A stretch of 64,000 nt of DNA, from NCBI RefSeq assembly GCF_002900095.1, contig NZ_LLKN01000002.1, positions 2,294,001 through 2,358,000 on the forward strand. The letters are read 5' to 3'. This document shows, in pieces, positions 30,439 to 47,150 of this stretch (position 1 is its first letter; every line of letters starts with the position of its first letter). Below the pieces are notes generated by a model that ran no database searches, had not been told where the DNA came from, and saw only the letters and a program-made list of their open reading frames with translations. A program made the translations under genes and the position numbers. Source of the stretch: Salegentibacter mishustinae (GTDB lineage Bacteria; Bacteroidota; Bacteroidia; Flavobacteriales; Flavobacteriaceae).

Positions 30439-31335
30439 ATGTCTTTACGCCAAACTATAAAACGCCATTATAAAATTATCTCTCTGCTTAGGTTACGCCC
30501 TATGAGTTATGAGGATGTTCAGGATGAAATGGCTGATGATCCCTGTTCTGTTGAGGAAAAGCTACTAACTTCTCAACGTACTTTTCAACGAGACCTGGAG
30601 GATATAGAATCTATACATAACATTGTAATAAAATGTAATCGAAGTACTAATAAATATTACATCAACGAGGATGTTGAGGAAACGCATTCTCAAAGATTAC
30701 GGGAAAATTTTGACCTTTTAAATGCCATTAGACTTTCCAAGAGTTTTGGAAACCAACTTATTTTTGAGGAAAGAAAACCCCTGGGCACACATCATTTAGC
30801 GGGTTTATTACACGCCAGTCAGAATTTTTTAGAAGTAAAGTTTGAATATCACAAATTCTGGGATACATCAATTAGTAATCGCAGGGTTAAGCCTATTGCG
30901 CTTAAAGAAGCCCGGAACCGTTGGTACCTGATTGCTGAAGATACCAAAGATGATATTATTAAAAACTTTTCGCTCGATCGAATTAAAAACCTGGAAATTA
31001 CCAAAGACAAGTTTAAGCCAATTGAATACCAGGCGTACGAAGAATTCAAGGATAGCTTCGGAATAATAAACGGCACAAATGAAGAGCCGCTTAAGGTTAT
31101 CCTATCGTTTACCCCCAGGGAAGGCAGGTATGTAGAATCACTTCCACTACACCATAGTCAGCAGTTAATTTTGAGTAACGAGGAGGAGATCAGGTTTAGT
31201 TATTTTATTCGTCCTACCTACGATTTTAGAATGGAAATACTCTCTTATGGCGACCAAATAAAAGTAATAGAACCGGAAAGTCTAAAATCGGAAATCAAAA
31301 AAGAATTAAAGTCTTGTTTAGGCAACTATGAATAG
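30439..31335 (+). CDS. WYL-domain transcriptional regulator
   Basis: This 298-residue protein has an N-terminal winged helix (KIISLLRLRPMSYEDVQDEM, SQRTFQRDLEDIESI) and a C-terminal WYL domain. The WYL motif appears as NRWYLIAED within KPIALKEARNRWYLIAEDTK, followed by the SLDRIKNLEI strand. WYL proteins bind ligands or nucleic acid and often control defence, DNA repair or mobile-element genes. It precedes a methyltransferase by 38 bp and lies 2 kb upstream of the restriction operon; control of that operon is possible but unproven. Confidence 0.88.
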   Translation: MSLRQTIKRHYKIISLLRLRPMSYEDVQDEMADDPCSVEEKLLTSQRTFQRDLEDIESIHNIVIKCNRSTNKYYINEDVEETHSQRLRENFDLLNAIRLSKSFGNQLIFEERKPLGTHHLAGLLHASQNFLEVKFEYHKFWDTSISNRRVKPIALKEARNRWYLIAEDTKDDIIKNFSLDRIKNLEITKDKFKPIEYQAYEEFKDSFGIINGTNEEPLKVILSFTPREGRYVESLPLHHSQQLILSNEEEIRFSYFIRPTYDFRMEILSYGDQIKVIEPESLKSEIKKELKSCLGNYE

Positions 31336-32198: not shown

Positions 32199-32639
32199 AT
32201 GATTATCAAATGAATTGTATATATTTTTCTCATCAGCTGTGTAATCAATGCTAACGTTTTGGCTCAGGCAGTAAAAGAAGAAAATAAATATGGAGAGAAG
32301 CTTTATTTTGTTGAGGGCAATACGCTAAAGCAAAAGGATAAATATGGCGAGGACCTATTTTACTGGAATAGCGAAGAAATTAAACTGAAGAATAAATACG
32401 GCAAAAGCCTTTATTTTTTGGATGGTAACACGGTAAAACTGGAAAATAAATATGGGGATCGCTTATATGAGTTTGATGGATATTATATCCGGTACCGTGA
32501 TAAGTACGGTCCTAAAATCTGGTATTTAGATGGTAGAGTATTAAAACGAAAAGATAAATACGGCGAACCGGTTTATTATTTTGAAGGCATCCCTGATAAA
32601 TGGGTACTGGTAGCTCTGCTGGATCTTGCCAGGGAATGA
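32199..32639 (+). pseudogene. Secreted KYG-repeat protein with a stop codon in its signal peptide
   Basis: From ATG 32199 the frame reads MIIK, a TGA stop (32211-32213), then IVYIFLISCVINANVLAQ, a clear signal-peptide core and cleavage site, and then the mature protein. One base change (for example CGA to TGA) would have created the stop. The mature part has six repeats of exactly 18 residues, each starting KYG and containing an aromatic pair and a D/E-G (KYGEKLYFVEGNTLKQKD and variants), then WVLVALLDLARE. The TTG at 32259 could start an unexported product. A read-through codon or late mutation is possible; I treat the gene as probably inactivated. Confidence 0.55.
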
Positions 32640-33310: not shown

Positions 33311-35854
33311 ATGTCTTTGTCAATGAAGAACGAAGCGCATGCAAGAATAAAAATCAACAAACTGCTTGAAGAAGCAGGTTGGCGATTTTTTGATAATGGC
33401 AAGGGGAAGGCTAATATCCTTCTGGAAAACCGTGTGAAGATTACCCAGGAATTGATGGATGCCTGGGGGAATGATTATGAAGAAACCACAGATGGTTCCT
33501 TAGATTTTCTGCTTCTCGATTCTAACGATAAGCCAATTTGTGTTCTGGAAGCAAAGAAAGAAAGCCTTCATCCACTTACCGCTAAGGAACAGGCAAGGAA
33601 ATATGCCAGGTCTGTCGACTCTCGGTTTATAATATTATCTAACGGAATTATTCACTTTCTCTGGGATCTGAAAAAAGGAAATCCTAAACCTATTTATCAA
33701 TTTCCTTCTGCTGATGAGATTGGAGCAATTAAGGAATGGAAACCAGATAGGAAGGCTTTAGCACAGGAAAGAATTTCAGAAGATTATATTGCCAAAGTGC
33801 AGATGCCCGATTATGCACAGAGGCCAGAATGGAAAGGTTCGGTTAAGGATAGTAAGGATTTTATCTGGACGAATGGTCTACGATTTCTAAGAAAATATCA
33901 GATTAAAGCAGTCGAAAAACTCCAGGAATCAGTAAAGAAGGGTAATGATCGCTTCCTTTTTGAAATGGCTACAGGTACGGGTAAAACACTTACTTCAGCG
34001 GCTGTAATCCGATTGTTTTTAAGAACCGAAAATGCAAGAAGAGTACTTTTTCTTGTTGATAGGTTAGAACTTGAAGATCAGGCTTGGAAAGCATTTACAA
34101 ATTACTTAAAACCTGATTACAGTACATTCATTTACAAAGAACATAAAAGTGATTGGAGAAAAGCCGACATAATCGTTACTACAATTCAATCACTAATGTT
34201 CAATGATAAATACCGTTATTATTTTAAACCTACTGATTTTGACTTATTAATTTCAGATGAATCACATCGATCCATTTCTGGAAATGCACGCGCTGTTTTT
34301 GAATATTTTCATGGATATAAATTAGGTCTTACAGCAACTCCAAAGGACTATCTAAAAGGGGTTAATATCGATAAAACTCGAGAGAATGATCCACGTGAGG
34401 TAGAACGGAGATTGCTTCGAGATACCTACTCAACTTTTGGGTGTGAAGGTGGAGACCCAACTTTTCGATATTCTCTATTGGACGGAGTAAAAGATGGATA
34501 TTTAATTAATCCGAAGGTTCTTGATGCCAGAACAGAAATTACAACCCAACTTTTAACTGATGAAGGTTATGCAGTTACTATAACTAATGAGGAGGGTGAA
34601 GAGGAAGAAGAAGTTTTTGTTTCCAGAGACTTCGAAAAGAAATTCTTTTCAGAAAAAACAAATAGTAGTTTTTGTCAGAGCTTTCTGGATAACGCACTTC
34701 GTGATCCCATTACCAAAGAGATCGGTAAATCTATTTTGTTCGCAGTAAGCCAGAACCACGCTAGAAAGATCACCGAAATTCTGAATGAGTTTGCGGAACA
34801 ACTTTTTCCTGGTAAATATAATTCTGATTTTGCAGTACAGGTAACTTCTCAGGTCGCAGATGCACAGCAAATGACCATAAATTTCACCAATAATAATCTT
34901 AACGGAAAAACCGGTTGGTTAGAAGGTTATAAATCATCCAAAACAAGGGTTTGCGTAACGGTAGGGATGATGACTACTGGTTATGATTGTCCAGATCTTC
35001 TGAATATCTGTATGATGAGGCCTATTTTTAGTCCTGCAGATTTTGTTCAGATTAAAGGAAGAGGAACCCGAAAGCATACGTTTGAGTTTATTGGTAAAAA
35101 CGACCTGGGGGAAGAAGAAAAAATTCAATTTGAAAAAGAGATTTTCAAGCTGTTTGATTTCTTTGCGAACTGTGAATATTTTGAAGAGAAATTCGATTAT
35201 GATGAAAAACTAAACCTTCCAAAACCAAAGAAAGGGAATGATGGAGGCGAAGGTGATCCAAGGAATTTAGAGAAATATACGAGTTACAAACCTGATCCAT
35301 TACTCACGGTTAACGAGCAGACAATAGGCTACGAGGGAATGAAAATTGATCGTATGCTCTTTAAAAAGTTTGAGGATCGAATAGTAATGGATGACATTAT
35401 AAAAAAGAATGTTGAACTAGGGAACTGGGAGCAAGTGGTCACACACATCCAGCAGGAGATTTTTGATAAACCAGATGAATATTTTGATCTGGAAAAGCTT
35501 AGAAAAGCGGCAAAAATAGACCGAAAGGTTTCTATAAGGGAAGTCGTGGAAAAAATATTTGGAATTATTCCAAAATTTAAATCTAAGGATGAATTACTTG
35601 AAGAAGAGTTTACCAAATTTATGTCTCTTTATCCACCTGGGGAGGATGTGAACATCAGAGCTTTAAAATACTTTTTTAAAGCCTATATAGTAGATCAGGA
35701 TATTCGTAAGATTATCAATGCAAAGGATTTTCACGCCTTACAAACCAACCCTACATTAACCATAGCTCAATTTAAAAAGGTTGATGCCAAATACCGCGAA
35801 GTAATTCCGGGTTATATAAAAGATTATATCAATTTAAAGCAGTTCGCTGCCTGA
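33311..35854 (+). CDS. hsdR: Type I restriction enzyme R subunit (HsdR), EcoEI-like
   Basis: This is the DNA-translocating, cleaving subunit of a type I restriction-modification complex. The 847-residue protein has an N-terminal nuclease with D65, E80 and K82 (PD-D/ExK type, in SLDFLLLD and VLEAKK). SF2 helicase motifs follow: Walker A ATGTGKT (220-226), DESH (316-319), TATPKDY, MMTTGYDCPD and QIKGRGTRK. The C-terminal helical part would bind the methylase. Length and order match EcoEI/KpnI-type HsdR. It is 10 bp from the M-S gene, so they form one operon. Confidence 0.95.
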   Translation: MSLSMKNEAHARIKINKLLEEAGWRFFDNGKGKANILLENRVKITQELMDAWGNDYEETTDGSLDFLLLDSNDKPICVLEAKKESLHPLTAKEQARKYARSVDSRFIILSNGIIHFLWDLKKGNPKPIYQFPSADEIGAIKEWKPDRKALAQERISEDYIAKVQMPDYAQRPEWKGSVKDSKDFIWTNGLRFLRKYQIKAVEKLQESVKKGNDRFLFEMATGTGKTLTSAAVIRLFLRTENARRVLFLVDRLELEDQAWKAFTNYLKPDYSTFIYKEHKSDWRKADIIVTTIQSLMFNDKYRYYFKPTDFDLLISDESHRSISGNARAVFEYFHGYKLGLTATPKDYLKGVNIDKTRENDPREVERRLLRDTYSTFGCEGGDPTFRYSLLDGVKDGYLINPKVLDARTEITTQLLTDEGYAVTITNEEGEEEEEVFVSRDFEKKFFSEKTNSSFCQSFLDNALRDPITKEIGKSILFAVSQNHARKITEILNEFAEQLFPGKYNSDFAVQVTSQVADAQQMTINFTNNNLNGKTGWLEGYKSSKTRVCVTVGMMTTGYDCPDLLNICMMRPIFSPADFVQIKGRGTRKHTFEFIGKNDLGEEEKIQFEKEIFKLFDFFANCEYFEEKFDYDEKLNLPKPKKGNDGGEGDPRNLEKYTSYKPDPLLTVNEQTIGYEGMKIDRMLFKKFEDRIVMDDIIKKNVELGNWEQVVTHIQQEIFDKPDEYFDLEKLRKAAKIDRKVSIREVVEKIFGIIPKFKSKDELLEEEFTKFMSLYPPGEDVNIRALKYFFKAYIVDQDIRKIINAKDFHALQTNPTLTIAQFKKVDAKYREVIPGYIKDYINLKQFAA

Positions 35855-35864
35855 TAAAGATTAT

Positions 35865-38486
35865 ATGTTAGATAGTACTACTCGCAAGAGGATTGACGAT
35901 TGTCGTGATATTTTAGTAGGAAAATTACCGGACCCCAAAGCACAAATTGAACAGATTACCATAGGCTTGATATACAAGTTTATGGACGATATGGATAAAG
36001 AAGCGATTGAATTAGGAGGAAAGCCTAAATTCTTTTCTAATTTCAAACTTCCAGATCCTGAGCATCCGGAAGATCGCTCAAAGGATAAACTTGTTCAATT
36101 TGAACAATACAGATGGGATAATTTATTCAATAGCAAAGTGACGGCTGCAGAGATGCTGCGACTGTATTCTGAAGCTATTGAGAATATGGAAAAGAACCCG
36201 AACATACCTCAGTTGTTTCGAGATATTTTCAATAACGCCTATTTGCCTTACCGCGATCCCGAAACTCTTAAGATGTTTTTAAAAACGATTGGGGAGTTTG
36301 AATACACTCATAGTGAAAAGCTGGGAGATGCGTTCGAATATTTATTGCAGGTGATGGGTTCTCAGGGAGATGCAGGTCAATTTAGAACTCCGAGGCATAT
36401 TATTGATTTCCTGGTTGCAATTGTAGATCCGGGAAAGAATGATACTATACTCGATCCAGCCTGTGGTACGGCAGGATTTCTAATTTCTGCCTACAAACAT
36501 ATCCTATTAAAGAATGCAAAGGCTAATGAAAAAGGGCTTGACATTTATAGTTATAATAATAAAAATGATAAACCACCTTTTAATAATCTCGGAGATAATC
36601 TAACACCAGACCAGAAGAAGAAGCTTGTGCAGAATTTTGCTGGCTACGATATCTCGCCTGATATGGTGAGGCTGAGTTTGGTGAATTTATATCTCCACGG
36701 GTTCCCTGAACCACATGTTCATGAATATGATACCCTGAGTAGTGAAGCGAGATGGAATGAAAATTTTGATGTGATCCTGGCGAATCCTCCCTTTATGAGT
36801 CCTAAAGGAGGGATTAGACCACACAAGAAATTTACGATTAGTAGTAAGCGAAGTGAGGTACTTTTTGTTGATTATATAGCGGAACATCTCAATCCAAAAG
36901 GTCGAGCCGGAATTATTGTTCCTGAAGGGGTTATTTTTCAGAGCGGAACAGCCTATAAGGATCTGCGTAAAATGTTAATCGAAAACCAACTTTATGCAGT
37001 TGTTAGTTTACCTGCCGGAGTTTTTAATCCCTATAGTGGAGTAAAAACCTCCATTCTCTTATTGGATGCTGAAATAGCTAAAAAAAGTAACGAAGTTCTT
37101 TTTATCAAGATCAAAAATGACGGTTATAATCTTGGTGCACAAAGAACTGCTATGAAAGGAGGTCAGTTAGAAGAAGCTATTATTACCGCTAAAGCTTTTA
37201 AAAATTTAATTTCAAAAGGAGAGGATTTTGCAAATACTTCCTTCGCTCATTCAGTATATAAAAAGGAAATTGCTAAAAGTGGGGAGTATAATTTAAATGG
37301 AGATAGATATAAAAATATTGATGCTGTAAATTCTAAGTTCGAATTTGTCAAACTTTCAGAAATATGTGATGTCCGAGATGGAACTCACGACAGTCCAAAA
37401 TATGTTGAAAATGGATATCCATTAATTACTTCTAAAAATATTAAAGATGGGTATATTGATTTTTCAAATGTTAATAATATATCTGAAGAGGACCTTAATA
37501 GAGTAAATAAAAGGTCTTTTGTTGACGATGGAGATATTATTATGCCAATGATAGGTACTATAGGTAACCCTATAGTTGTGAAAAAGGAACAGGAATTTGC
37601 AATAAAAAATTTGGCTCTTATAAAATTTGAAGAAAGATCAAGAATCAATAATCACTATTTAAAGGCAGTTCTTGCATCAGATTATTTTAGTGAAAATTAT
37701 AAAAATTTCTCGTCAGGTTCAACTCAAAAATTTATCTCTTTAACTTTCATAAGAAACCTTGAAATTCCCCTACCACCTCTACCCATTCAGGAGGAAATTG
37801 TAGCTGAAATTGAAGGCTATCAAAAGATTATTGATGGGGCTAAAGCGGTAGTAGAAAACTATAAACCAAAAATTGAAATTGATCCGAAGTGGGAGATGGT
37901 GGAATTTAAAGATGCACCTCTGGAAATTATCGACGGTGATCGAGGAAAAAACTATCCAAAAAAATCAGATTTTAATAGTGAAGGGTTCTGCTTATTCCTA
38001 AGTACAAAAAATGTTAGAGATAACGGTTTTTTATTTGAAGATCTATCATTTATCTCTGAGGAAAAAGATAAGGCATTAAGAAAGGGAAAGCTTGATAGAG
38101 AGGACGTTTTACTTACTACAAGGGGGACAGTTGGAAATACGGCGTACTATGATAGTTCAGTAGCCTATAATAACATTCGAATAAATTCCGGAATGCTGAT
38201 ATTTAGAACCGAACAGAATAAATTATTACCTGAGTACTTATATTATTTTTTCCAATCTGAAAATTGTAAGTCTCAGTTCAAGAAAATAATATCCGGTGCT
38301 GCTCAACCTCAATTACCAATAAGAAGCCTGAAAAATGCATATATACCAATACCGACTCCAGAGATCCAAATTAAAATCGTAAATAAAATAAAAAAAGAAC
38401 TAACCTTAGTGGATGCTAATCATGAGCTCATTGAGATTTTTAAGCAAAAAATAAAAGATAGAATTGCTAAAATTTGGGGGGAATAA
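35865..38486 (+). CDS. hsdMS: Fused type I methylase and specificity subunits (HsdM-HsdS)
   Basis: This 873-residue protein joins two subunits usually made separately. The M part (about 1-480) has a helical HsdM N-domain, GQFRTPRHII, motif I DPACGTAGF (197-205) and the catalytic NPPF (307-310), so it makes N6-methyladenine. The S part (about 490-873) has two target-recognition domains, beginning FEFVKLSEICDVRDGTH and WEMVEFKDAPLEIIDGDRG, joined by the conserved helix IPLPPLPIQEEIVAEIEGYQ. The reading frame is continuous with no frameshift. Each recognition domain ends with a helix, as in normal HsdS. The adjacent HsdR makes a type I enzyme likely, but the fusion also resembles type IIG architecture. 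Confidence 0.92.
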   Translation: MLDSTTRKRIDDCRDILVGKLPDPKAQIEQITIGLIYKFMDDMDKEAIELGGKPKFFSNFKLPDPEHPEDRSKDKLVQFEQYRWDNLFNSKVTAAEMLRLYSEAIENMEKNPNIPQLFRDIFNNAYLPYRDPETLKMFLKTIGEFEYTHSEKLGDAFEYLLQVMGSQGDAGQFRTPRHIIDFLVAIVDPGKNDTILDPACGTAGFLISAYKHILLKNAKANEKGLDIYSYNNKNDKPPFNNLGDNLTPDQKKKLVQNFAGYDISPDMVRLSLVNLYLHGFPEPHVHEYDTLSSEARWNENFDVILANPPFMSPKGGIRPHKKFTISSKRSEVLFVDYIAEHLNPKGRAGIIVPEGVIFQSGTAYKDLRKMLIENQLYAVVSLPAGVFNPYSGVKTSILLLDAEIAKKSNEVLFIKIKNDGYNLGAQRTAMKGGQLEEAIITAKAFKNLISKGEDFANTSFAHSVYKKEIAKSGEYNLNGDRYKNIDAVNSKFEFVKLSEICDVRDGTHDSPKYVENGYPLITSKNIKDGYIDFSNVNNISEEDLNRVNKRSFVDDGDIIMPMIGTIGNPIVVKKEQEFAIKNLALIKFEERSRINNHYLKAVLASDYFSENYKNFSSGSTQKFISLTFIRNLEIPLPPLPIQEEIVAEIEGYQKIIDGAKAVVENYKPKIEIDPKWEMVEFKDAPLEIIDGDRGKNYPKKSDFNSEGFCLFLSTKNVRDNGFLFEDLSFISEEKDKALRKGKLDREDVLLTTRGTVGNTAYYDSSVAYNNIRINSGMLIFRTEQNKLLPEYLYYFFQSENCKSQFKKIISGAAQPQLPIRSLKNAYIPIPTPEIQIKIVNKIKKELTLVDANHELIEIFKQKIKDRIAKIWGE

Positions 38487-39223
38487 TGGAAGAAGCTTAC
38501 GAAATATTAGATTATTTGCCCATTCGGTTTAAGGAAGCTACTGAAGAAGAATATATTAAATTTCTGTGGGAAGCTTTTGAGAGTAATTATCAAAATGAGA
38601 AATACCAGTTTTCATTTATGGCTTACCATATGCTCTTTATGAGCTCTGTCTATTTCAATGTCTGGCAAATAAAATCTATTAGAGAAGACGATTTTCATAA
38701 AATTCGGTTAGGTTTTAATGAAGATTTCGGAAATGCTACCAGCCCCTTTAATTTCAGCAAAGAGAATGAATCAAGAGTTCTTGATCTCTTAAGATATACC
38801 TGTGCTTCCCATTCAGATGTCAAATCTTTAATTGGACAGTATAAAAAGCTTGTAAAAGAGAGGAATGGAGTTGCACACGCAAATGGGTCAATTCCTTTCA
38901 GGACTAGCTCATATTTAGAGACAAGAGTTAGTGACATAATTCGATATACTGCAGAAATTCAATCTTACAGTAAGCCAATTATTCAGGAATGTTTTAAGAA
39001 GTTTTTAATTGAAAGTCAGGATGAAGAGACAAGGCCATATGTTGATATTTCGGAACAAATTAATGAGGTTTTAATACATGAACATTATTTGTCTCAAAAG
39101 GACCTGGAATTTTGTCTGGAGTATGATATTTCAAATTTAGCTGATGAACCCAATTATATTGAAATAGAGAAAATTTTTCAAGAACTCCAAACTCAGTATT
39201 CACCTGAAGATCTCGAAGTTTAA
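38486..39223 (+). CDS. HEPN-like protein of the restriction operon
   Basis: The start ATG 38486 overlaps the last base of the hsdMS stop (TAATG), so translation is coupled; this gives 245 residues. The N-terminal half is helical with an ERNGVAHANG segment, in which R126-N127-x3-H131 is the R-x4-H signature of HEPN RNases. The motif sits at the end of a long helix, as in the family. The C-terminal half is acidic and helical (ISEQINEVLIHEHYLSQKDL). HEPN proteins often act as RNA-cleaving effectors or toxins in defence loci; here it lies between HsdS and DUF262 genes. The domain call rests on the motif and context only. Confidence 0.6.
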   Translation: MEEAYEILDYLPIRFKEATEEEYIKFLWEAFESNYQNEKYQFSFMAYHMLFMSSVYFNVWQIKSIREDDFHKIRLGFNEDFGNATSPFNFSKENESRVLDLLRYTCASHSDVKSLIGQYKKLVKERNGVAHANGSIPFRTSSYLETRVSDIIRYTAEIQSYSKPIIQECFKKFLIESQDEETRPYVDISEQINEVLIHEHYLSQKDLEFCLEYDISNLADEPNYIEIEKIFQELQTQYSPEDLEV

Positions 39224-39239
39224 TCCAAGCCTTTTACTA

Positions 39240-40562
39240 ATGTCAAAAATTTGCCCTCCAGAAATTATATCTGTAAAGAATTTAGTTACCACTAAGATTG
39301 AAATTCCAGGCTATCAACGCCCATATAAATGGCGATTGAAAAATGTGGATGATTTACTTAATGATATTATATTTTTTAGTTCAAAAAAACCTTCTTACAG
39401 GTTAGGTACGGTAATTATCGATAGGTCAAATGATATTGACGAAATTGTTGATGGTCAACAGAGACTATTAACCTTAGTACTTATTTCGAAAGCCTTAGAG
39501 GAAAAATCAATGCTAGAAGAATCAGATAAGTTTGAAATTCCTCTATTAAAAGAAGACTTTACACATTCTATTTCCAGAATGAACCTCTTAAGAAATTACC
39601 AACATATTTTGACAAGAATTGGAGATTTCAAACCAGAGGTAATAAAATTTTTCCTTTACCAATGTGAGTTGGTGAAGGTTTCTATAGGTAGTATAAGAGA
39701 GGCATTTCAATTCTTTGATTCTCAAAATTCAAGAGGAAAAGCTTTGTATCCTCATAATTTGCTAAAAGCATTTCATTTAAGAGAAATGGAGGACGCAAGC
39801 GACGATGAGAAAATTAATGCTGTTCAGAATTGGGATGCAACGGAATCTTTAAAACTAAAAAATTTGTTTGGAAGCTATCTATATAAAGTTCGAAAGTGGT
39901 CTAAAGGTAAAGCAGCAATGGACTTAACAAATGATGAATTAGATATTTTTAAAGGTATTAAACTGAGTCAGGCGGAGCAATTCCCTTATGCCAGAAGTTT
40001 TGAAATGAATAATACTTTTCTAAACAATTATGATAAATTTTCTGAAGATTCTAATCCCCCTGCATATCCACAACAATTAGATGGGGTTATTATAAATGGA
40101 AAACGATTTTTTGAATTTACTAATCAGACCCTGGCTAATATTGAGTTTATTACGAACTATGATAGTGAGTTCTGGAATGCAATTTATTCTAATCAAACTT
40201 CTAATATTCTTAAATTTTTAAGAGGTAATGGTGGCCAAAATAGAAAGGGAGATCAATATTGTAAATTGTTATTTGAAAATACCATACTATATTATTATAG
40301 CAAGTTTCACAACCATCAATTAGAAAAGATACTACCTATAATTTTCTTATGGTCCTTCAGAGAAAGATTAAACCTGAAAGCCGTGAGGTATGAAACTATC
40401 AATAATCATGCGAATCACTACAATAGTCTTTTCCACACTATAAAGGAAGCGCTTGATCCTTCTGAATTACTTTTATACCAATTAAAACCAGTAAAATTTA
40501 ATTTTGAGAATGTCTACGGATTAGATGTAATATTTGAGAAATATAATAAGTTAAAATCATAA
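39240..40562 (+). CDS. DUF262-domain protein, first of two
   Basis: This 440-residue protein starts with the DUF262 (ParB-like nucleotide-binding) core: YQRPYKW (25-31) and DGQQR (71-75). The middle part (SIREAFQFFDSQNSRGKALYPHNLLKAFHL) resembles the helical region following DUF262 in GmrSD-type proteins. No H-x-x-P HNH motif is found at the C-terminus, so it lacks the DUF1524 nuclease of its neighbour. The next gene overlaps its stop by one base. It may work as a partner of the second DUF262 protein. Confidence 0.8.
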   Translation: MSKICPPEIISVKNLVTTKIEIPGYQRPYKWRLKNVDDLLNDIIFFSSKKPSYRLGTVIIDRSNDIDEIVDGQQRLLTLVLISKALEEKSMLEESDKFEIPLLKEDFTHSISRMNLLRNYQHILTRIGDFKPEVIKFFLYQCELVKVSIGSIREAFQFFDSQNSRGKALYPHNLLKAFHLREMEDASDDEKINAVQNWDATESLKLKNLFGSYLYKVRKWSKGKAAMDLTNDELDIFKGIKLSQAEQFPYARSFEMNNTFLNNYDKFSEDSNPPAYPQQLDGVIINGKRFFEFTNQTLANIEFITNYDSEFWNAIYSNQTSNILKFLRGNGGQNRKGDQYCKLLFENTILYYYSKFHNHQLEKILPIIFLWSFRERLNLKAVRYETINNHANHYNSLFHTIKEALDPSELLLYQLKPVKFNFENVYGLDVIFEKYNKLKS

Positions 40563-42475
40563 TGAACCAACCTGTTTTTGTTCCCATAGGAGAGCTTTTC
40601 CAAGATTGTAAATATTCCATTCCTTTATACCAAAGAGAATATGCCTGGACAATAGAACATATTTCTCAACTACTTTCAGATATAGCAAGTAATGCAGAGA
40701 AAAACTTTGAGACAAACTACTATCTAGGCACGCTAGTTTTATTTGATGAAGGTGAAAACTTTCAAGCTATAGACGGACAGCAACGGCTTACAACCTTATT
40801 CCTGTTACTGTGTCATTTAAAAACACGGGAAAGTAGAAATTTCACTCAGGATTCTATTTGCTTCGATTCGAGAGACCGATCAACCAGAACCTTAAGGGCA
40901 ATATTTAATGGGGATAATGATATTGATCACGCAGAACCAAATATTCTCGCAGGTTGGGAATCTATTCAACAGCAGTTCGAAAACATTTGTAAGGAGTTTT
41001 CTCTTTCGACTGATAAGTTCATTGACTATCTTGAAGATAAGGTTCAATTGTTAAAAGTTTTTGTTCCTGAGCATACTGATTTAAATCATTATTTTGAAAT
41101 CATGAATGTGCGAGGTGAGCAGTTAGAAAAGCACGAGGTATTGAAATCGAGGTTGATGGAAAGGTTAGAGACTGAACAGGATCGAAATCTATTCTCGAAG
41201 GTGTGGGATTCATGCAGTGATATGAATAAATATTTGCAGCTTTCCCTGGTTAAAACTAATAAGGATATTGAAAAAGTTTTTGGTGAGAATTGGAATGAAC
41301 TGCCTTCAAAATATGAAGAGTTATTTGATAAATATGCAGACTTTCAGGAGGAATTGGATTCTGAAAAGAAGAATAAAGAGAAGAAAGATGATCTTTCTTT
41401 GGAAGAATTATTAAAAGCCAAGGTGGCTGTGGATCCAGAAAAGTCCAAAAATCAGGAAGAATGGAGTAGTTTAACCTCAGTAATAAATTTTCCTAATTTT
41501 TTATTGCAGGTTCTCAGTGTTTTTTGTCCCGAAACGGATATTGCTTTGGATGATAAAAGGTTGCTAGAACAGTTTGAACCTTTTTATTCAGGTAAGATGG
41601 ATAAATTCCCACTCCCGGAAGTTTTTGTGAAGGAGTTTTGTTATGCCCTTTTCAAATCGAAATTTCTTTTTGATAAATATATAATAAGGAATAGAGAAGA
41701 AAATAATGAAACTGAGTGGCTATTAAGAGAAATCAGACCCTACAGTAAAGGTTACAATTGGGTTGAGACATTTGGTGCTAATAAGAATGATAATATTCAG
41801 GAGAATATAATTATGTTACAATCAATGTTTCATGTTTCCTTTCCTACCCGGAATTATAAAAACTGGTTTACTGCAGTACTAAATTATTTATACAAGAATG
41901 AAAATAGAGGCAAAATAAAAGGTGATGAATTCAAAACCCATTTAATGAAAATGAGTGATTCATTCTATTTTGATCGTGATGGTGCAGAACCTCTGCCGTA
42001 TCGTAAAATAATTTTTGAAAATAATTGCGAGGCAGAAAAGGACTCTGTTAATGAAGAATCATTTATAATGGGGGTTGATACAAAGAATTTTGTGTTCAAC
42101 AGGTTGGATTATAAGTTATGGGAAAAAAGAGATGAATTAACATGGCCTGAGAATTCGATTAAAATAATCAACAACTTTAAATTTACCTTTAGGAGTTCTG
42201 TGGAACATTTTTATCCAAGAAATCCGAACACAGGTCTGAAAGCAACTTATAATGTTGATAAATTTGGAAACCTCTGTTTGATTGATAGAGGGAAAAATTC
42301 TCAATTAAGTAATAATGAACCTTTGGCAAAAGTAAGCTTCTATAAAAACACTTCTAACGTTGATAGCCTAAAACTGCATTTAATGATGGCTGATGCGGAT
42401 AAATGGGCAGAAGAGAAAATTGTGGAGTGTCATGAAAATGCTATGAAAGAAATGCTGAACTCCCCATCTGTTTAA
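40562..42475 (+). CDS. DUF262-DUF1524 protein, GmrSD-like nuclease
   Basis: This 637-residue protein has DUF262 motifs YQREYAW (23-29) and DGQQR (71-75), a central helical region (EIMNVRGEQLEKHEVLKSRL) and a C-terminal DUF1524-like His-Me motif: EHFYPR (548-553), then NLCLI and KNSQLSNN (about 578-585). In GmrSD the DUF262 part uses nucleotide and DUF1524 cuts modified DNA; related proteins occur in SspE and other defence systems. Its ATG overlaps the stop of the first DUF262 gene, so the two are coupled. It ends the plus-strand operon, converging with the GIY-YIG gene. Confidence 0.85.
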   Translation: MNQPVFVPIGELFQDCKYSIPLYQREYAWTIEHISQLLSDIASNAEKNFETNYYLGTLVLFDEGENFQAIDGQQRLTTLFLLLCHLKTRESRNFTQDSICFDSRDRSTRTLRAIFNGDNDIDHAEPNILAGWESIQQQFENICKEFSLSTDKFIDYLEDKVQLLKVFVPEHTDLNHYFEIMNVRGEQLEKHEVLKSRLMERLETEQDRNLFSKVWDSCSDMNKYLQLSLVKTNKDIEKVFGENWNELPSKYEELFDKYADFQEELDSEKKNKEKKDDLSLEELLKAKVAVDPEKSKNQEEWSSLTSVINFPNFLLQVLSVFCPETDIALDDKRLLEQFEPFYSGKMDKFPLPEVFVKEFCYALFKSKFLFDKYIIRNREENNETEWLLREIRPYSKGYNWVETFGANKNDNIQENIIMLQSMFHVSFPTRNYKNWFTAVLNYLYKNENRGKIKGDEFKTHLMKMSDSFYFDRDGAEPLPYRKIIFENNCEAEKDSVNEESFIMGVDTKNFVFNRLDYKLWEKRDELTWPENSIKIINNFKFTFRSSVEHFYPRNPNTGLKATYNVDKFGNLCLIDRGKNSQLSNNEPLAKVSFYKNTSNVDSLKLHLMMADADKWAEEKIVECHENAMKEMLNSPSV

Positions 42476-43039
42476 TTAATGTTTACCAATCCAGGGTTTC
42501 ATTTTTTCTCTTAACTCCCTTTCTAGATGCTTTAATAAGAATTGTTTGATGTCTTTTGGACTATCCTTCAAATCTTCAGGTAGCTCCCAAAAAGAATATT
42601 TTATGTTTTGAGGTGTGAAAAACTTTCTATCCTTGAGCTTTAATCCATAGGTTGTAATTTCGCCTTTGTGATTTATATGTTCATTTATTCTGCTACCTAA
42701 ATTTTCAGCTTTACCAATATAAAATGGATACCAGTTTTCGGTGTTGATCTCATCGTAAAAGGAAAATTTTGATTTTATAATCCTGGGATAATTACTATAA
42801 CCATCAAAATTCCAATCTGCTGATAACTCTTCAAGAGAATAGGCTTTTAAAGGCTTGATGTAAAATACATAAATACCAAACCTCTTGAATAGCCTTCTAT
42901 ATTTTGTGCCACTAATAAATTCAGCATTTAACCTGAAATCATTAATAATAGCGCTGTAAATATTCGCATCATTAAACCTTTTTCTGGTCTTTGTCCACAA
43001 AGATTTAAATTCTGAATTAAAATTAATTATCTCATTCAT
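42476..43039 (-). CDS. GIY-YIG nuclease-like protein
   Basis: This 187-residue protein has GIY at 55-57 (RFGIYVFYI) and YIG at 107-109 (YPFYIGKAENLGSRINEHI), with R117 in the usual position and a C-terminal HLERELREKMKPWIGKH segment carrying the conserved Glu and Pro. The fold is known from homing endonucleases, UvrC and some restriction enzymes. An insert of about 45 residues separates the two motifs. It ends at the base after the DUF262-DUF1524 stop, on the opposite strand. It is likely a nuclease, perhaps part of the island; the target is unknown. Confidence 0.75.
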   Translation of the reverse strand: MNEIINFNSEFKSLWTKTRKRFNDANIYSAIINDFRLNAEFISGTKYRRLFKRFGIYVFYIKPLKAYSLEELSADWNFDGYSNYPRIIKSKFSFYDEINTENWYPFYIGKAENLGSRINEHINHKGEITTYGLKLKDRKFFTPQNIKYSFWELPEDLKDSPKDIKQFLLKHLERELREKMKPWIGKH

Positions 43040-43040
43040 A

Positions 43041-43346
43041 TTAATCTAATCCAAAGAAATCATCAACATCAAACCCTTCCCTGCTGTCTTCATCAGGAAA
43101 CATCATATTTAAGGTTGCATCTCTACGCTCATCTGGTGTTTCCCATTCTTTATTAAGCCTGTCAAACCGATTCTGCAAAATTTCGAGTTCCTGTAATTTT
43201 TTATCGTCAAATTCACCTTCCCAAGCATTACCAAACATATCCTGAATTTGATAATATAAATCCTGTAGTTTTTCGTCATCATCATAGTCGAAATCCTCTA
43301 AAAGATTTTCCATTTCCTCAATTCGAGCTTCTATAAGTTTTTTCAT
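43041..43346 (-). CDS. Acidic hypothetical protein (101 residues)
   Basis: This strongly acidic helical protein (MKKLIEARIEEMENLLEDFD, ending DDFFGLD) has charged coiled-coil character. It lies 26 bp after the 505-residue gene and 1 bp before the GIY-YIG gene, so all three are likely one operon. Acidic partners of nucleases can act as inhibitors or DNA mimics; this is only a suggestion from composition. Confidence 0.65.
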   Translation of the reverse strand: MKKLIEARIEEMENLLEDFDYDDDEKLQDLYYQIQDMFGNAWEGEFDDKKLQELEILQNRFDRLNKEWETPDERRDATLNMMFPDEDSREGFDVDDFFGLD

Positions 43347-43372
43347 TTTTTAATTTGTTTAACCGATGAATA

Positions 43373-44890
43373 TTAGCCAGCCTTCATATATAATTTAGGC
43401 TCTGGACCTCTGTTATCTATAAGTACTTCAGATTCTCTGGAGAAACTGTTTAATGCCTCTAAGTTTAAAGAATGAACCGTCTCTATACTCTTTTTATTAA
43501 TGTCACCAAGAAGGTCGAATTGTTCCTGAGCGGTCTGAATCAAAGACTGAATATCTGCCTTGTCAATATTACTTTCTGATTTTAATTCTGTAAATCTGGT
43601 AAGTATGATTTTCTGAAAGTTTTTCACTTCTTTATCTAAGGAGCTATGTAGTAAATCTTCTTTTTTAAAACTGCTTAATTCAGCTTTCAGTTCTCCTATT
43701 TTAGCTATCCTGTCACCTGATAAGTCCTTTACAGCGAGATTCATTTTTAATTCAATCAGTCTTGAAATTTGGTAAAGTTCTTCTGCAGTGATAGCAGACT
43801 TAAAGGTGTAGAAAGGAGCCAAATCATCTATCTTATTATTAATCTTTTTCACTTTACCTTTTGAATTTGAAAGCACCTTCCCCACAGAACCACTAACGGA
43901 TTTCCAACGACGGCCAATGCTGGATGTTGAAACTTTATCTACAGCGCCATTTACTCCTCCCTTCAAACTAATAAGAGCTTTTTCTAAATTGTTTGCGTCA
44001 CTCAAATCTAATTCTCCTTGTTCTAATTCAAAATTTTCTGGTCGCACAAATTGGATAAGTGAGTTAATAGCTTCTTTGCTAGCAATGAAATATTCATTTC
44101 TGATAACCTGTAAGTCGTATGATATTTGTTTCAGGTTTACAAAATCTTCTATAGTAAAAGCTGATTTGTTACTGTATTTCTGCAATTGATGAAAGGCATA
44201 TTTCATTTTAGCCTCTCTTTCAATATGATGCATTCTTTCAAGGTTATCTAGTTTATCTAGTACTTTATTTAATTGGGTGGTAATACCATTAAAATAATAC
44301 TGGCCTGTCAGGATACTGGCAAACTGAATTGCCAGCAGAGGATTGAAGGCAGATCCGCCTGCCTGGGTGAACCCAGCATGTTGTTGAAATTGGCCATTTC
44401 CACCTCGGGTAATAGAACCAAAAGTACCATTTTGATATCTTATTAATTTATCAGGACTAACAGTTGCTTGAAATAGACCTTTTGTAGATTGGGTCGCAGC
44501 TCCCCCTATGGAGGCTCCGGTAGATGCTAAGCTTGACATCATCGAAGAAAGCTGGTATTGTCCCTCTTGCGAATGTCCAATTTCAAAGAAGTCTTTTGAA
44601 ATTAATTCACTTTCCTTAAGTGAAAAGCTAATTTGGTTATTTTCATTTTTACCTCCTAAACTAAATTTACGAATGATAGGCAATTTAATTTCATGTCCCT
44701 CTTCTTCATTTTCAGGGTTTTGAGCATTTAGATATTTTATCTCTGTTTTCGTTGGATTGGCTTTGAGATATGATATTTCTGCTATTAGTTTCTCATTTTG
44801 CGCAGTTAAAAGTTTTTGGTTCTCTAGGTTTTCGAGATTGTTTTCTCTTAATTTATCGATTCCTAAAATAGATTGTATCCAATTTTTCAT
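43373..44890 (-). CDS. Unrecognised protein with coiled coils and a central Gly/Ala/Gln-rich hydrophobic segment
   Basis: This 505-residue protein begins with a coiled-coil helix (RENNLENLENQKLLTAQNEK), then a strand-rich part, then a segment rich in Gly, Ala and Gln (SSMMSSLASTGASIGGAATQ) and a hydrophobic AFNPLLAIQFASILTGQYYF stretch (about residues 182-202). The C-terminal half is long charged helices. The organisation recalls membrane-active or scaffold proteins, but I recognise no family and no catalytic motif. It is upstream of the acidic protein and GIY-YIG genes in the same direction. Confidence 0.7.
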   Translation of the reverse strand: MKNWIQSILGIDKLRENNLENLENQKLLTAQNEKLIAEISYLKANPTKTEIKYLNAQNPENEEEGHEIKLPIIRKFSLGGKNENNQISFSLKESELISKDFFEIGHSQEGQYQLSSMMSSLASTGASIGGAATQSTKGLFQATVSPDKLIRYQNGTFGSITRGGNGQFQQHAGFTQAGGSAFNPLLAIQFASILTGQYYFNGITTQLNKVLDKLDNLERMHHIEREAKMKYAFHQLQKYSNKSAFTIEDFVNLKQISYDLQVIRNEYFIASKEAINSLIQFVRPENFELEQGELDLSDANNLEKALISLKGGVNGAVDKVSTSSIGRRWKSVSGSVGKVLSNSKGKVKKINNKIDDLAPFYTFKSAITAEELYQISRLIELKMNLAVKDLSGDRIAKIGELKAELSSFKKEDLLHSSLDKEVKNFQKIILTRFTELKSESNIDKADIQSLIQTAQEQFDLLGDINKKSIETVHSLNLEALNSFSRESEVLIDNRGPEPKLYMKAG

Positions 44891-44906: not shown

Positions 44907-46886
44907 TTAATTCGGAATGTTTAATTCTTTTTTACATTTTTCTCTAAAGTACTCATAGATCATCACCATTGCCAGAGTATCTAGTTCACAATACCTGAGT
45001 AAACTTTCCCTGATCGCTTTTCTTTCAATTCTAGGTACATCCTTAAACTGTAATTTTTGGTAGGCGAAGAGAGCGGCTCCTCCATCCTTGATTTCAGTAA
45101 GGCTTTCCGAAACTTTTTCTAATTGTTCATTATCCCAGCCATCAAAGACCGAGGGTAATGCCTTATATGGGCTAACCGGCTTTCCGTTCTCGAACTTCAG
45201 AAATACATGATCATCTGTAAAATTCCTGCTGGTGAGATTTAAATTGGCTATTGGCTGCTGGTATTTTTTCTGCAGGAATTCACTGGAATGCAGAACCGCT
45301 GGGAGAATTGCTTTGATTGAGTTTGATCCGCCGGTCACAGGATCGTAATAATAATTTACCACGGTCTTTTGAAGATCTATCATATCCCTATCACCACACC
45401 ATATTTTTGCATTTTTACCAGTGTTGTGGCTAATAGTTTCTATAAAATCCAATAACTCCTGTTTGTCCGGTTCATCAGAGGTGAGTAACTGATTATAGAC
45501 CACATTTACTATGGTGTTCTCATGATTATGATACCTGAAAATACTGCCATCATTCTGTGATAAGGAATTCTTTAACGCCCTAATAAAATCGAAATTTGGA
45601 AAAGCTCCAATTTCAGTATTCAGGTACTCGCTGAAATGCTCTACCGTTCCATCTTCGTAAACAGTATGATGGCTAAATTGGAATGCCAGCTGCTCATATG
45701 GATGCATTCCGGCTACAAATGGAATTGCCACCGCAGTAGTTTCAAAATCGATAAAATTCAGCGGATATTTCCAGGAACCCAGTTCTTCCCGCAGGTTATC
45801 AATATCAAAATAAGGAGAATCATCCTGTTCCTGATGTTTTTCTACCTGGAGCCACTGTCGCTCAGACCGGCTTAACTTTCCTGCTGCCGGCCGAATATCA
45901 ATATCATTTTCGGTTAACTCATCCATGAAGTAACGACCCTCTTCAATAGCCTGTTTTGCCGGATTATACCAGACATCATAAACTTTGGGCTGATCGATCC
46001 TTTCCTTTGATATCTGTAATTGCTCCTGCCAGCATTCATGAAAACCGCTTTTGAAGCCATTGGAATGATTCTCTGTGATAAACTCACAGCCTTTACAATG
46101 CGGGCCTATCTCAGTAAACAGTTTAGAATCCTCCCGGTAATGCACTCTGAAATGTTCTACAGTTTCTTGAAAAGAGCGGGTATCATCCACCGGATTCTGA
46201 TTCAGGATCAGATCTATCTCTTCATCAACATTGATGTCAAATAAAATAGGATTACCCAGATCTGCTTTGGTAAGCCCTTCTTTTTTCTCGATACCTGTGC
46301 GCAAATCTGAGTTGGAAATAACTTTAAAGCATTGATGCAGTCCATCTACAGTGGTTACGGCATCTTTATCGGCAAGTTTAAGATAGGAAGATATGTCCCA
46401 TTCAGGATAGCAACACTGAATAACATATTTTTGAAAAGCAATATCATATAAGTAAAGGTCCCAGCCACCGCCCAGTTTCCCATTTGATTTAATAAAGGAT
46501 TGATGATCTACACTCCTGATGGACTTGGCTTTTACCTCAATAAGTTTGATATTATTTCCTTTTTTCACAAGTATATCTACCCTTACAAAAAGGTTATCGA
46601 CCAGGAATGCAGGTTCAAAGATTGTTATATTTTCCTGTTCAAGAAGTTTTCGTGTTTTTTCAGCCAGCAGGTCGTAATTATAATCATCTCCAATAATGGC
46701 AATGCCATCGGGATAATCCATTCTTGCGAGTTCTTCAACCTGAAACCCACCTTGTGCAAGTGCCTCCAGGAATGAATCGGAATCGCTCTTATTTTTATAC
46801 TCTTCCTTACGGGTATAATAAAGTTTGGTAGGACAATCTAGGGCCAGTTTAAAACGGGATTTAGTTAGATATCTTGGAGACGGCAT
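44907..46886 (-). CDS. DUF2779 protein: RecB-like nuclease with DnaQ-like exonuclease domain
   Basis: The start chosen is ATG 46886 (MPSPRYLTKSRFKLALDCPT, 659 residues), the usual start of this family; 14 further codons upstream are open but unusual. The N-terminal part is a RecB/Cas4-like nuclease with C18, D104 and E117-V-K119 (LIEVKAKS) and a cysteine set (CKGCEF, later HECW) that may hold an iron-sulfur cluster as in Cas4. The C-terminal part has a DnaQ/RNase H-like NFIDFETTAVAIPF exonuclease motif. Family function is unknown; the architecture points to DNA or RNA degradation and it is often found in defence regions. Confidence 0.85.
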   Translation of the reverse strand: MPSPRYLTKSRFKLALDCPTKLYYTRKEEYKNKSDSDSFLEALAQGGFQVEELARMDYPDGIAIIGDDYNYDLLAEKTRKLLEQENITIFEPAFLVDNLFVRVDILVKKGNNIKLIEVKAKSIRSVDHQSFIKSNGKLGGGWDLYLYDIAFQKYVIQCCYPEWDISSYLKLADKDAVTTVDGLHQCFKVISNSDLRTGIEKKEGLTKADLGNPILFDINVDEEIDLILNQNPVDDTRSFQETVEHFRVHYREDSKLFTEIGPHCKGCEFITENHSNGFKSGFHECWQEQLQISKERIDQPKVYDVWYNPAKQAIEEGRYFMDELTENDIDIRPAAGKLSRSERQWLQVEKHQEQDDSPYFDIDNLREELGSWKYPLNFIDFETTAVAIPFVAGMHPYEQLAFQFSHHTVYEDGTVEHFSEYLNTEIGAFPNFDFIRALKNSLSQNDGSIFRYHNHENTIVNVVYNQLLTSDEPDKQELLDFIETISHNTGKNAKIWCGDRDMIDLQKTVVNYYYDPVTGGSNSIKAILPAVLHSSEFLQKKYQQPIANLNLTSRNFTDDHVFLKFENGKPVSPYKALPSVFDGWDNEQLEKVSESLTEIKDGGAALFAYQKLQFKDVPRIERKAIRESLLRYCELDTLAMVMIYEYFREKCKKELNIPN

Positions 46887-47150
46887 GTTAAATAGTTTAT
46901 AGATAACTCTTAAAAATAATAAGTCCAAAAGCTAGAACCTGTCGTTTTGAAGAAAAATATTAGTCATCACTAACAATTAAAAATGAAACATCCCTCTAGA
47001 ACTTCTTCGAAATAGTAAATCGGACTTATATAAATCTTAAGATTCAAATCTTCCAAAAAACATTTAACTATTAAATATTATTTCAATAGTGGTATAATGC
47101 AAACAAGATTGGGTAGTGAAGGCCTAGAAGATTTTTTAATAATATATAGG

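Follow-up and report, generated by a model that had tools for sequence, protein, structure and literature searches.

Do five genes packed into one operon, each with a likely part in defence, amount to one defence system? The question was raised by a locus of Salegentibacter mishustinae lying within a window of 64,000 nucleotides (contig NZ_LLKN01000002.1, positions 2,294,001 to 2,358,000, forward strand), to which all coordinates given here refer. The operon (33311-42475, all five genes on the + strand) comprises the type I restriction gene hsdR, a fused hsdMS gene, a gene for a small HEPN-domain protein and a pair of DUF262 genes, DUF262-A and DUF262-B. An earlier note on this DNA had described gaps of 10 bp or less or overlaps at most junctions, with a one-base overlap between hsdMS and the HEPN gene, 16 bp between the latter and DUF262-A and a second one-base overlap within the DUF262 pair. 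The open reading frames (ORFs) confirmed these coordinates and junctions, the gap between hsdR and hsdMS being 10 bp, and the identities given to the five products were upheld by their Pfam domains. The analysis described below showed the HEPN gene to be a companion belonging to the type I core with fused HsdMS, a link much stronger than the earlier note proposed, and uncovered a site for exchangeable defence genes next to it.

The partnership emerged from a scan of one genome per species (84,980 species), in which an alignment of four HEPN proteins served as the sole query, so that the hsd genes had no role in the choice of loci. The scan gave 198 pattern matches, 73 of which encode a relative of the HEPN protein. 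In 68 of the 73 loci the HEPN gene has upstream of it, on its own strand, an hsdMS gene of the window's family, and in 63 hsdR is present as well. Of the five exceptions, L060 and L081 offer only about 1,020 and 11 bases of sequence 5' of the HEPN gene, L057 and L105 carry hsd remnants, and L106, a match of 36 residues without hsd genes in its vicinity, probably arose by chance but is still counted among the 73. To judge from record titles, the loci are spread over about a dozen phyla, including Bacteroidota, Chlorobiota, Pseudomonadota, Acidobacteriota, Planctomycetota, Verrucomicrobiota, Nitrospirota, Spirochaetota, Gemmatimonadota, Latescibacterota, Armatimonadota, Actinomycetota and delta-proteobacterial groups; since many are metagenome bins, single phylum placements may be wrong. 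A scan of a viral collection yielded 26 pattern matches and one relative, on viral contig L107, where BLAST detected the whole trio. When plasmids were searched with the HEPN protein, the sole match was a Paracoccus zhejiangensis record (L026), whose annotation lists genes for a helicase and an N-6 DNA methylase, with the HEPN match 3' of both. Within the phylum, the protein matched 6 of 395 genomes (E <= 0.001), the window's own included. In three of them (G098, G117 and G358) the gene lies directly 3' of a same-family fused hsdMS, with a frameshift in G117, and in G032 a remnant with a stop lies 3' of hsdMS and of a DUF4917-like gene; the weak match in G289 (E 3.3e-4) was left out of locus mapping.

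The order of the genes is matched by the closeness of their junction and by their divergence. Of 60 intact loci, three of which have no preceding ORF, 57 allowed the distance from the preceding stop to the HEPN start to be measured, and in 39 of these it falls between -4 and +4 bp. In the window, the hsdMS stop and the HEPN ATG (38486) overlap by one base; the ORF list starts the gene at an upstream TTG (38474), and alignments of homologues begin at the ATG. Across the window and 45 loci, HEPN distances correlate with those of HsdM and HsdR (Spearman 0.68 and 0.64, respectively; none of 500 permutations as high), the HsdR-HsdM correlation being 0.84. That the HEPN gene is a chance neighbour was rejected on the strength of the 68 loci with hsdMS. 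A related explanation, which we consider improbable, is that defence genes simply accumulate in islands, so that not even HEPN and hsdMS would be functionally linked. Such clustering has been reported for GmrSD homologues, commonly found near type I genes, which are their most frequent defence neighbours (PMC4619093). It also fits the DUF262 pair of the window, the free variation of the genes found around HEPN (see below) and the existence of clearly mismatched HEPN proteins in L053 and in a group of gamma/beta-proteobacterial loci. It leaves unexplained, however, why 68 of 73 loci from about a dozen phyla should show one hsdMS family in the same order and on the same strand, and why the HEPN gene should start so close to the preceding stop.

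The two genes of the core are of recognizable type. The hsdR product (33311-35854, +, 847 aa), the motor and nuclease subunit, contains the HSDR_N nuclease domain (PF04313/PF13588) and the ResIII domain (PF04851) of a superfamily 2 motor, as found in type I HsdR proteins; inspection by eye revealed a PD-(D/E)xK-like EAK motif and the helicase motifs GTGKT and DESH. The hsdMS gene (35865-38486, +, 873 aa) joins on one chain an N6-adenine methyltransferase (N6_Mtase) and a specificity part with two recognition domains, seen as two Methylase_S stretches, the Pfam content of type I HsdM and HsdS. The fusion is genuine, as the fused protein aligns from end to end and recurs in most relatives. The window's type of HsdR was found in 20 of the 395 phylum genomes (E <= 1e-150). 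All 20 neighbourhoods were mapped: the HEPN gene is present in four (frameshifted in one), a remnant occurs in one and none was found in 15. Thus, HEPN is found together with the core, which itself often lacks HEPN; this weak reverse link fits an add-on that needs the core rather than the opposite.

The HEPN gene (38486-39223, +) encodes 245 aa. Its match to the Pfam family HEPN_RiboL-PSP (PF18735) is marginal (28.6 bits against a cut-off of 28.4), and no PADLOC or NCBIfam model matched it at E <= 0.01. The R126-N127-x3-H131 motif, which conforms to the HEPN Rx4-6H pattern, is invariant in 61 of 61 intact proteins, the window's included, a count that leaves out 12 interrupted or truncated copies and L106. 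Conservation extends to residues away from the motif, such as W60, Q61, Q159 and D206. The structure model is all helical (predicted local distance difference test score, pLDDT, 92). Its best matches among solved structures include the HEPN-type entries 2q00, 3c8g and 7bxo, at modest Z scores only. Foldseek returned nothing at E <= 0.001, so that the fold assignment rests on this second aligner and on the motif; a sequence search of solved structures gave one match at chance level (E 0.29). No sensor domain was found; apart from HEPN, the chain consists of about 80 additional helical residues. The protein is probably an RNA-cutting enzyme. Its ribonuclease (RNase) activity, and likewise its toxicity and its tethering to the Hsd complex, are what we infer.

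The DUF262 genes tell a different story. DUF262-A (39240-40562, +, 440 aa, TgvA-like) carries GmrSD_N and DUF7834 domains, no nuclease domain being found by Pfam, and DUF262-B (40562-42475, +, 637 aa, TgvB-like), whose ATG shares base 40562 with the end of DUF262-A, combines GmrSD_N with a C-terminal GmrSD_C/DUF1524 nuclease domain, which is the composition of a TgvAB pair. A DGQQR motif occupies positions 71-75 of both proteins and is invariant in eight aligned sequences of each, the window included; the same holds for H549, N570 and N579 of DUF262-B, which appear equivalent to the published TgvB residues H571/N602. By these features the pair matches TgvAB, a published GmrSD-like type IV system, and is of an ordinary, known kind. 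DUF262-A or DUF262-B was detected in none of the 73 HEPN loci (tblastn, 1e-8), 58 of which extend at least 4 kb past HEPN; only remote DUF262 proteins, on the opposite strand, were seen in L068 and L085. Among the loci examined, the window alone unites the pair with the hsdR-hsdMS-HEPN trio. A conserved five-gene system was rejected on this count, and with it the new five-gene composite that the earlier note had claimed. Of the adjacency on which that claim depended, the bond between HEPN and hsdR-hsdMS proved tight, but the DUF262 pair behaves as a free module elsewhere.

This behaviour was apparent from the relatives of the pair. At E <= 1e-10, DUF262-A had matches in 7 of the 395 phylum genomes, and at E <= 1e-20 in 11 of 397 family genomes, the window being counted in both. 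Thirteen genome loci were mapped (all six other phylum matches and seven of the ten other family matches): hsd genes, called by BLASTP to those of the window at 1e-4 or by annotation, lie beside the pair in seven, in some four different positions, and the window's HEPN protein is in none. DUF262-A relatives were also found on 913 plasmid records, 854 of them from Klebsiella; in seven plasmid regions drawn from these records, hsdS adjoins the pair in one and not in six. In L028, the one Klebsiella record viewed, the pair adjoins the anti-phage gene hhe. Overall, other type I genes accompany the pair in at least 8 of the 20 loci viewed, a lower bound given the limits of hsd recognition and the presence of contig ends (L159), and no hsd gene was seen in 12; these include the nearest relative (L154, 46%), which adjoins a KAP NTPase gene. 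As the pair occurs elsewhere without HEPN and in varied settings, it probably joined the window operon separately. The guanine-plus-cytosine content is about 0.36 at hsdR and drops to about 0.32 across HEPN and the pair, a change too weak to serve as an argument for recent insertion. Three of the type I operons that carry the DUF262 pair (L020, L022 and L156) have a protein of about 237 aa encoded 3' of the putative hsdR, which we take to be a YgjP-like metallopeptidase.

The same data bear on the idea that the five genes form one co-operating machine, with HEPN and the DUF262 pair both dependent on the type I complex. Tight packing and the two one-base overlaps would suit such a machine, as would the report that, against several phages, protection by TgvAB without the rest of its cluster was 10- to 100-fold lower than by the full cluster (PMC11411939). 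The authors of that report found the TgvAB effect to be independent of HsdR cutting, however, and suggested stoichiometry as the cause. Their view, the absence of DUF262-A/B from all 73 HEPN loci and the 12 of 20 viewed loci in which the pair has no visible hsd neighbour make the single machine very improbable.

Other loci carry a changing set of genes around HEPN. In 26 loci more than 500 bp separate the end of the hsdMS alignment from HEPN, and in 24 of them this stretch contains one or more ORFs of at least 150 aa. These ORFs fall into 15 families (BLASTP, 1e-5), some sharing a wider fold, e.g. SIR2-like. When one representative of each family was compared with Pfam, 11 of 15 scored above the curated cut-off, one scored below it and three had no match. 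The names are putAbiC, SIR2-like (two families), AAA_13, ABC-3C CTD10 (two families, one with DUF2326), DUF4917, Mrr_cat, AAA_21, HerA/DUF87 and reverse transcriptase. A PADLOC scan of nine such cargo proteins and one DUF6602 protein identified the reverse transcriptase as DRT UG13b, the DUF4917 protein as PDC-S21, the Mrr protein as PDC-S02 and the AAA_13 protein as PDC-S06 (with weak similarity to PrrC); putAbiC and two SIR2-like proteins matched weakly, and two proteins of the same family (L054 and L074) had no match. Many of the families are thus known or candidate defence genes. Cargo is also found 3' of HEPN, as a DUF4917-gene relative in L049 and a weakly GHKL-ATPase-like protein in L053, and relatives of both precede HEPN in other loci. 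The exchange is best seen among Flavobacteriaceae whose HsdR proteins are 94-99% identical and whose 3' genes read hsdMS-HEPN (L034, L036), hsdMS-putAbiC-HEPN (L035), hsdMS-SIR2-HEPN (L086) and hsdMS-DUF6602 without HEPN (L128); L034 and L128, with HsdR proteins 96% identical, represent natural versions with and without HEPN. In L137 the same slot holds DUF3644/EC042_2821, itself another HEPN clade (PMC3710099). Since different defence genes surround HEPN in different bacteria, the five genes of the window need not be one machine: the operon is best read as a modular assembly whose members have operon and theme in common.

Some of the proteins at these positions deserve separate mention. A family of 453-677 aa recurs at the hsdMS/HEPN site (L054 8583-9944, L074 4277-6280, L096 7989-9992, L053 10791-12824); the L054 and L074 members lack Pfam and PADLOC matches, that of L053 shows weak GHKL ATPase similarity, and the family is a candidate new defence gene. 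Two further proteins co-occur in two Flavobacteriaceae (L037 5681-6685 and 10727-11761; L086 5675-6682 and 10736-11776), one encoded between hsdR and hsdMS and the other 3' of HEPN, the L037 copies having no Pfam match. A DUF6602 protein takes the place of HEPN directly 3' of hsdMS in L128 (by Pfam) and, by eye, in L133, L134 and L142; in PADLOC the L128 protein resembles PD-(D/E)xK and NucC-type effectors.

How might these parts work together? The reading we favour, by a modest measure, is that the type I enzyme holds a PrrC-like HEPN RNase on a tether and is accompanied by a site for exchangeable cargo, which in the window is TgvAB-like. To judge from the domains, the methyltransferase would mark host DNA, and HsdR with HsdMS would cut unmarked phage DNA. 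By analogy with PrrC/PrrI, HEPN would be a second-line RNase silenced by binding to the Hsd complex and released once that complex is inhibited or overwhelmed. The DUF262 pair would be a 3' addition that works in the manner of TgvAB: its two DUF262 domains may help to recognise sugar-modified cytosines and DUF262-B may cut with its His-Me nuclease, so that phages shielded from the type I enzyme by their modified DNA would be covered as well. The site around HEPN would take different defence genes in different bacteria.

Two sets of observations weigh against the part of this reading in which HsdMS is the sole antidote. First, HEPN is broken or shortened beside a complete hsdR in nine loci (L075, L090, L091, L096, L097, L099, L102, L103 and L104). 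Second, an intact HEPN gene lies beside hsd remnants in L057. An open HEPN frame accompanies incomplete hsd genes also in L045 and L054; with these three loci at hand, the notion that HEPN alone decays beside intact hsd genes was dropped. The same findings would suit an abortive effector that is signalled rather than tethered, being activated by the Hsd complex on unmodified or stalled phage DNA. Such a protein could be harmless until switched on, as L057 would have it, and the nine loci with complete hsdR indicate that restriction seems not to need HEPN; linkage and motif conservation fit equally well. The precedent, however, is that of a tethered RNase, PrrC (PMC3710099, PMC3506569), and no domain that would sense a signal was found in the protein beyond HEPN and its helical residues. 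Signalling is the main rival of the favoured reading, though rather unlikely. Tethering is favoured because of the analogy with PrrC.

On a broader scale, hsdR-hsdMS-[exchangeable defence gene]-HEPN could represent an unnamed, widespread type I supersystem, with the HEPN RNase as an obligate companion leashed or triggered by this HsdMS family and the hsdMS/HEPN junction as a docking point where abortive-infection genes are exchanged around a near-identical core. We put this forward tentatively, the chances being somewhat below even. If true, the unnamed proteins at the hsdMS/HEPN site would be predicted new defence genes. The site, both of whose borders are fixed, can also be used as bait for new anti-phage genes. 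Proposals that couple immunity to suicide go back more than a decade, and the single worked example in the extracts consulted is PrrC-PrrI (PMC3710099, PMC3506569). A small one-domain HEPN protein, detected almost exclusively alongside one HsdMS family across about a dozen phyla, without an ATPase domain and with natural versions bearing or lacking it on near-identical HsdR, would provide a clean second model.

The surroundings of the operon contain other genes of possible interest. Three convergent genes lie 3' of it (42476-44890, -), encoding a GIY-YIG-like protein of 187 aa (below the Pfam cut-off) and proteins of 101 and 505 aa without Pfam match; a gene for a DUF2779 protein of 673 aa (44907-46928, -) adjoins this cluster. 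Upstream, a 126 aa protein built of a repeated KYG-type unit can be translated from 32259-32639 (+), and a WYL + WCX regulator is encoded about 2 kb before hsdR (30439-31335, +). WYL regulators have been reported beside defence islands (PMC9122601).

Comparison with known systems separates what is familiar in the operon from what is not. In Vibrio cholerae, a type I cluster contains tgvA and tgvB, two genes that are each required for defence against Tevenvirinae whose cytosines are modified; protection is lost when the His-Me residues are mutated (PMC11411939). In the same source, the five-gene cluster gave 79 matches and tgvAB alone 1,341 in 41,142 genomes. The window's pair resembles TgvAB in consisting of neighbouring DUF262 genes of which the second alone encodes DUF1524, in the DGQQR motif of both proteins, in the His-Me residues of DUF262-B and in the placement of the pair within a type I operon. 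It differs in that the pair stands at the operon end, after HEPN, and its type I family is unlike those beside other pairs; the proteins are 35-40% identical to seven aligned pairs, the V. cholerae sequences not being among these. The layered defence suggested in the earlier note thus stands as an idea of stacked layers, its division of labour between type I enzyme and DUF262/DUF1524 proteins having been published for TgvAB (PMC11411939). Similarly, the abortive layer it assigned to HEPN falls under a published general proposal in which HEPN RNases are tied to restriction-modification systems as a suicidal layer (PMC3710099, PMC3506569), the tie having been described in 2013 for at least 16 HEPN clades. 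In PrrC/PrrI, as is predicted for the window, a type I operon also encodes an HEPN RNase for second-line defence. However, PrrC has an ABC NTPase in the same chain, whereas the window protein consists only of HEPN and a helical C-terminal part, and tethering, reported for PrrC (PMC3710099, PMC3506569), would apply here by analogy. The Ribo L-PSP-HEPN family (PF18735) offers the best Pfam match and an Rx4H motif, but Table 1 of PMC3710099 gives it an endoRNase L-PSP fusion and a ParB operon, not a fixed hsdMS partner. The rlo genes of Campylobacter, including RloF with DUF262, are accessory genes inserted in type I operons, as here, a likeness of description rather than sequence; the extracts consulted describe no fixed HEPN marker (PMC4619093, PMC11411939). 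Nor was an HEPN gene fixed to fused HsdMS described in the HEPN-side titles and abstract starts or in the extracts of PMC3710099, PMC3506569 and PMC12839542, a sample short of the whole literature. Thus, the principle linking HEPN to restriction-modification (2013) and the union of type I genes with TgvAB (2024) were already known, and it is the fixed HEPN partner and the exchangeable defence genes around it that look newly noticed.
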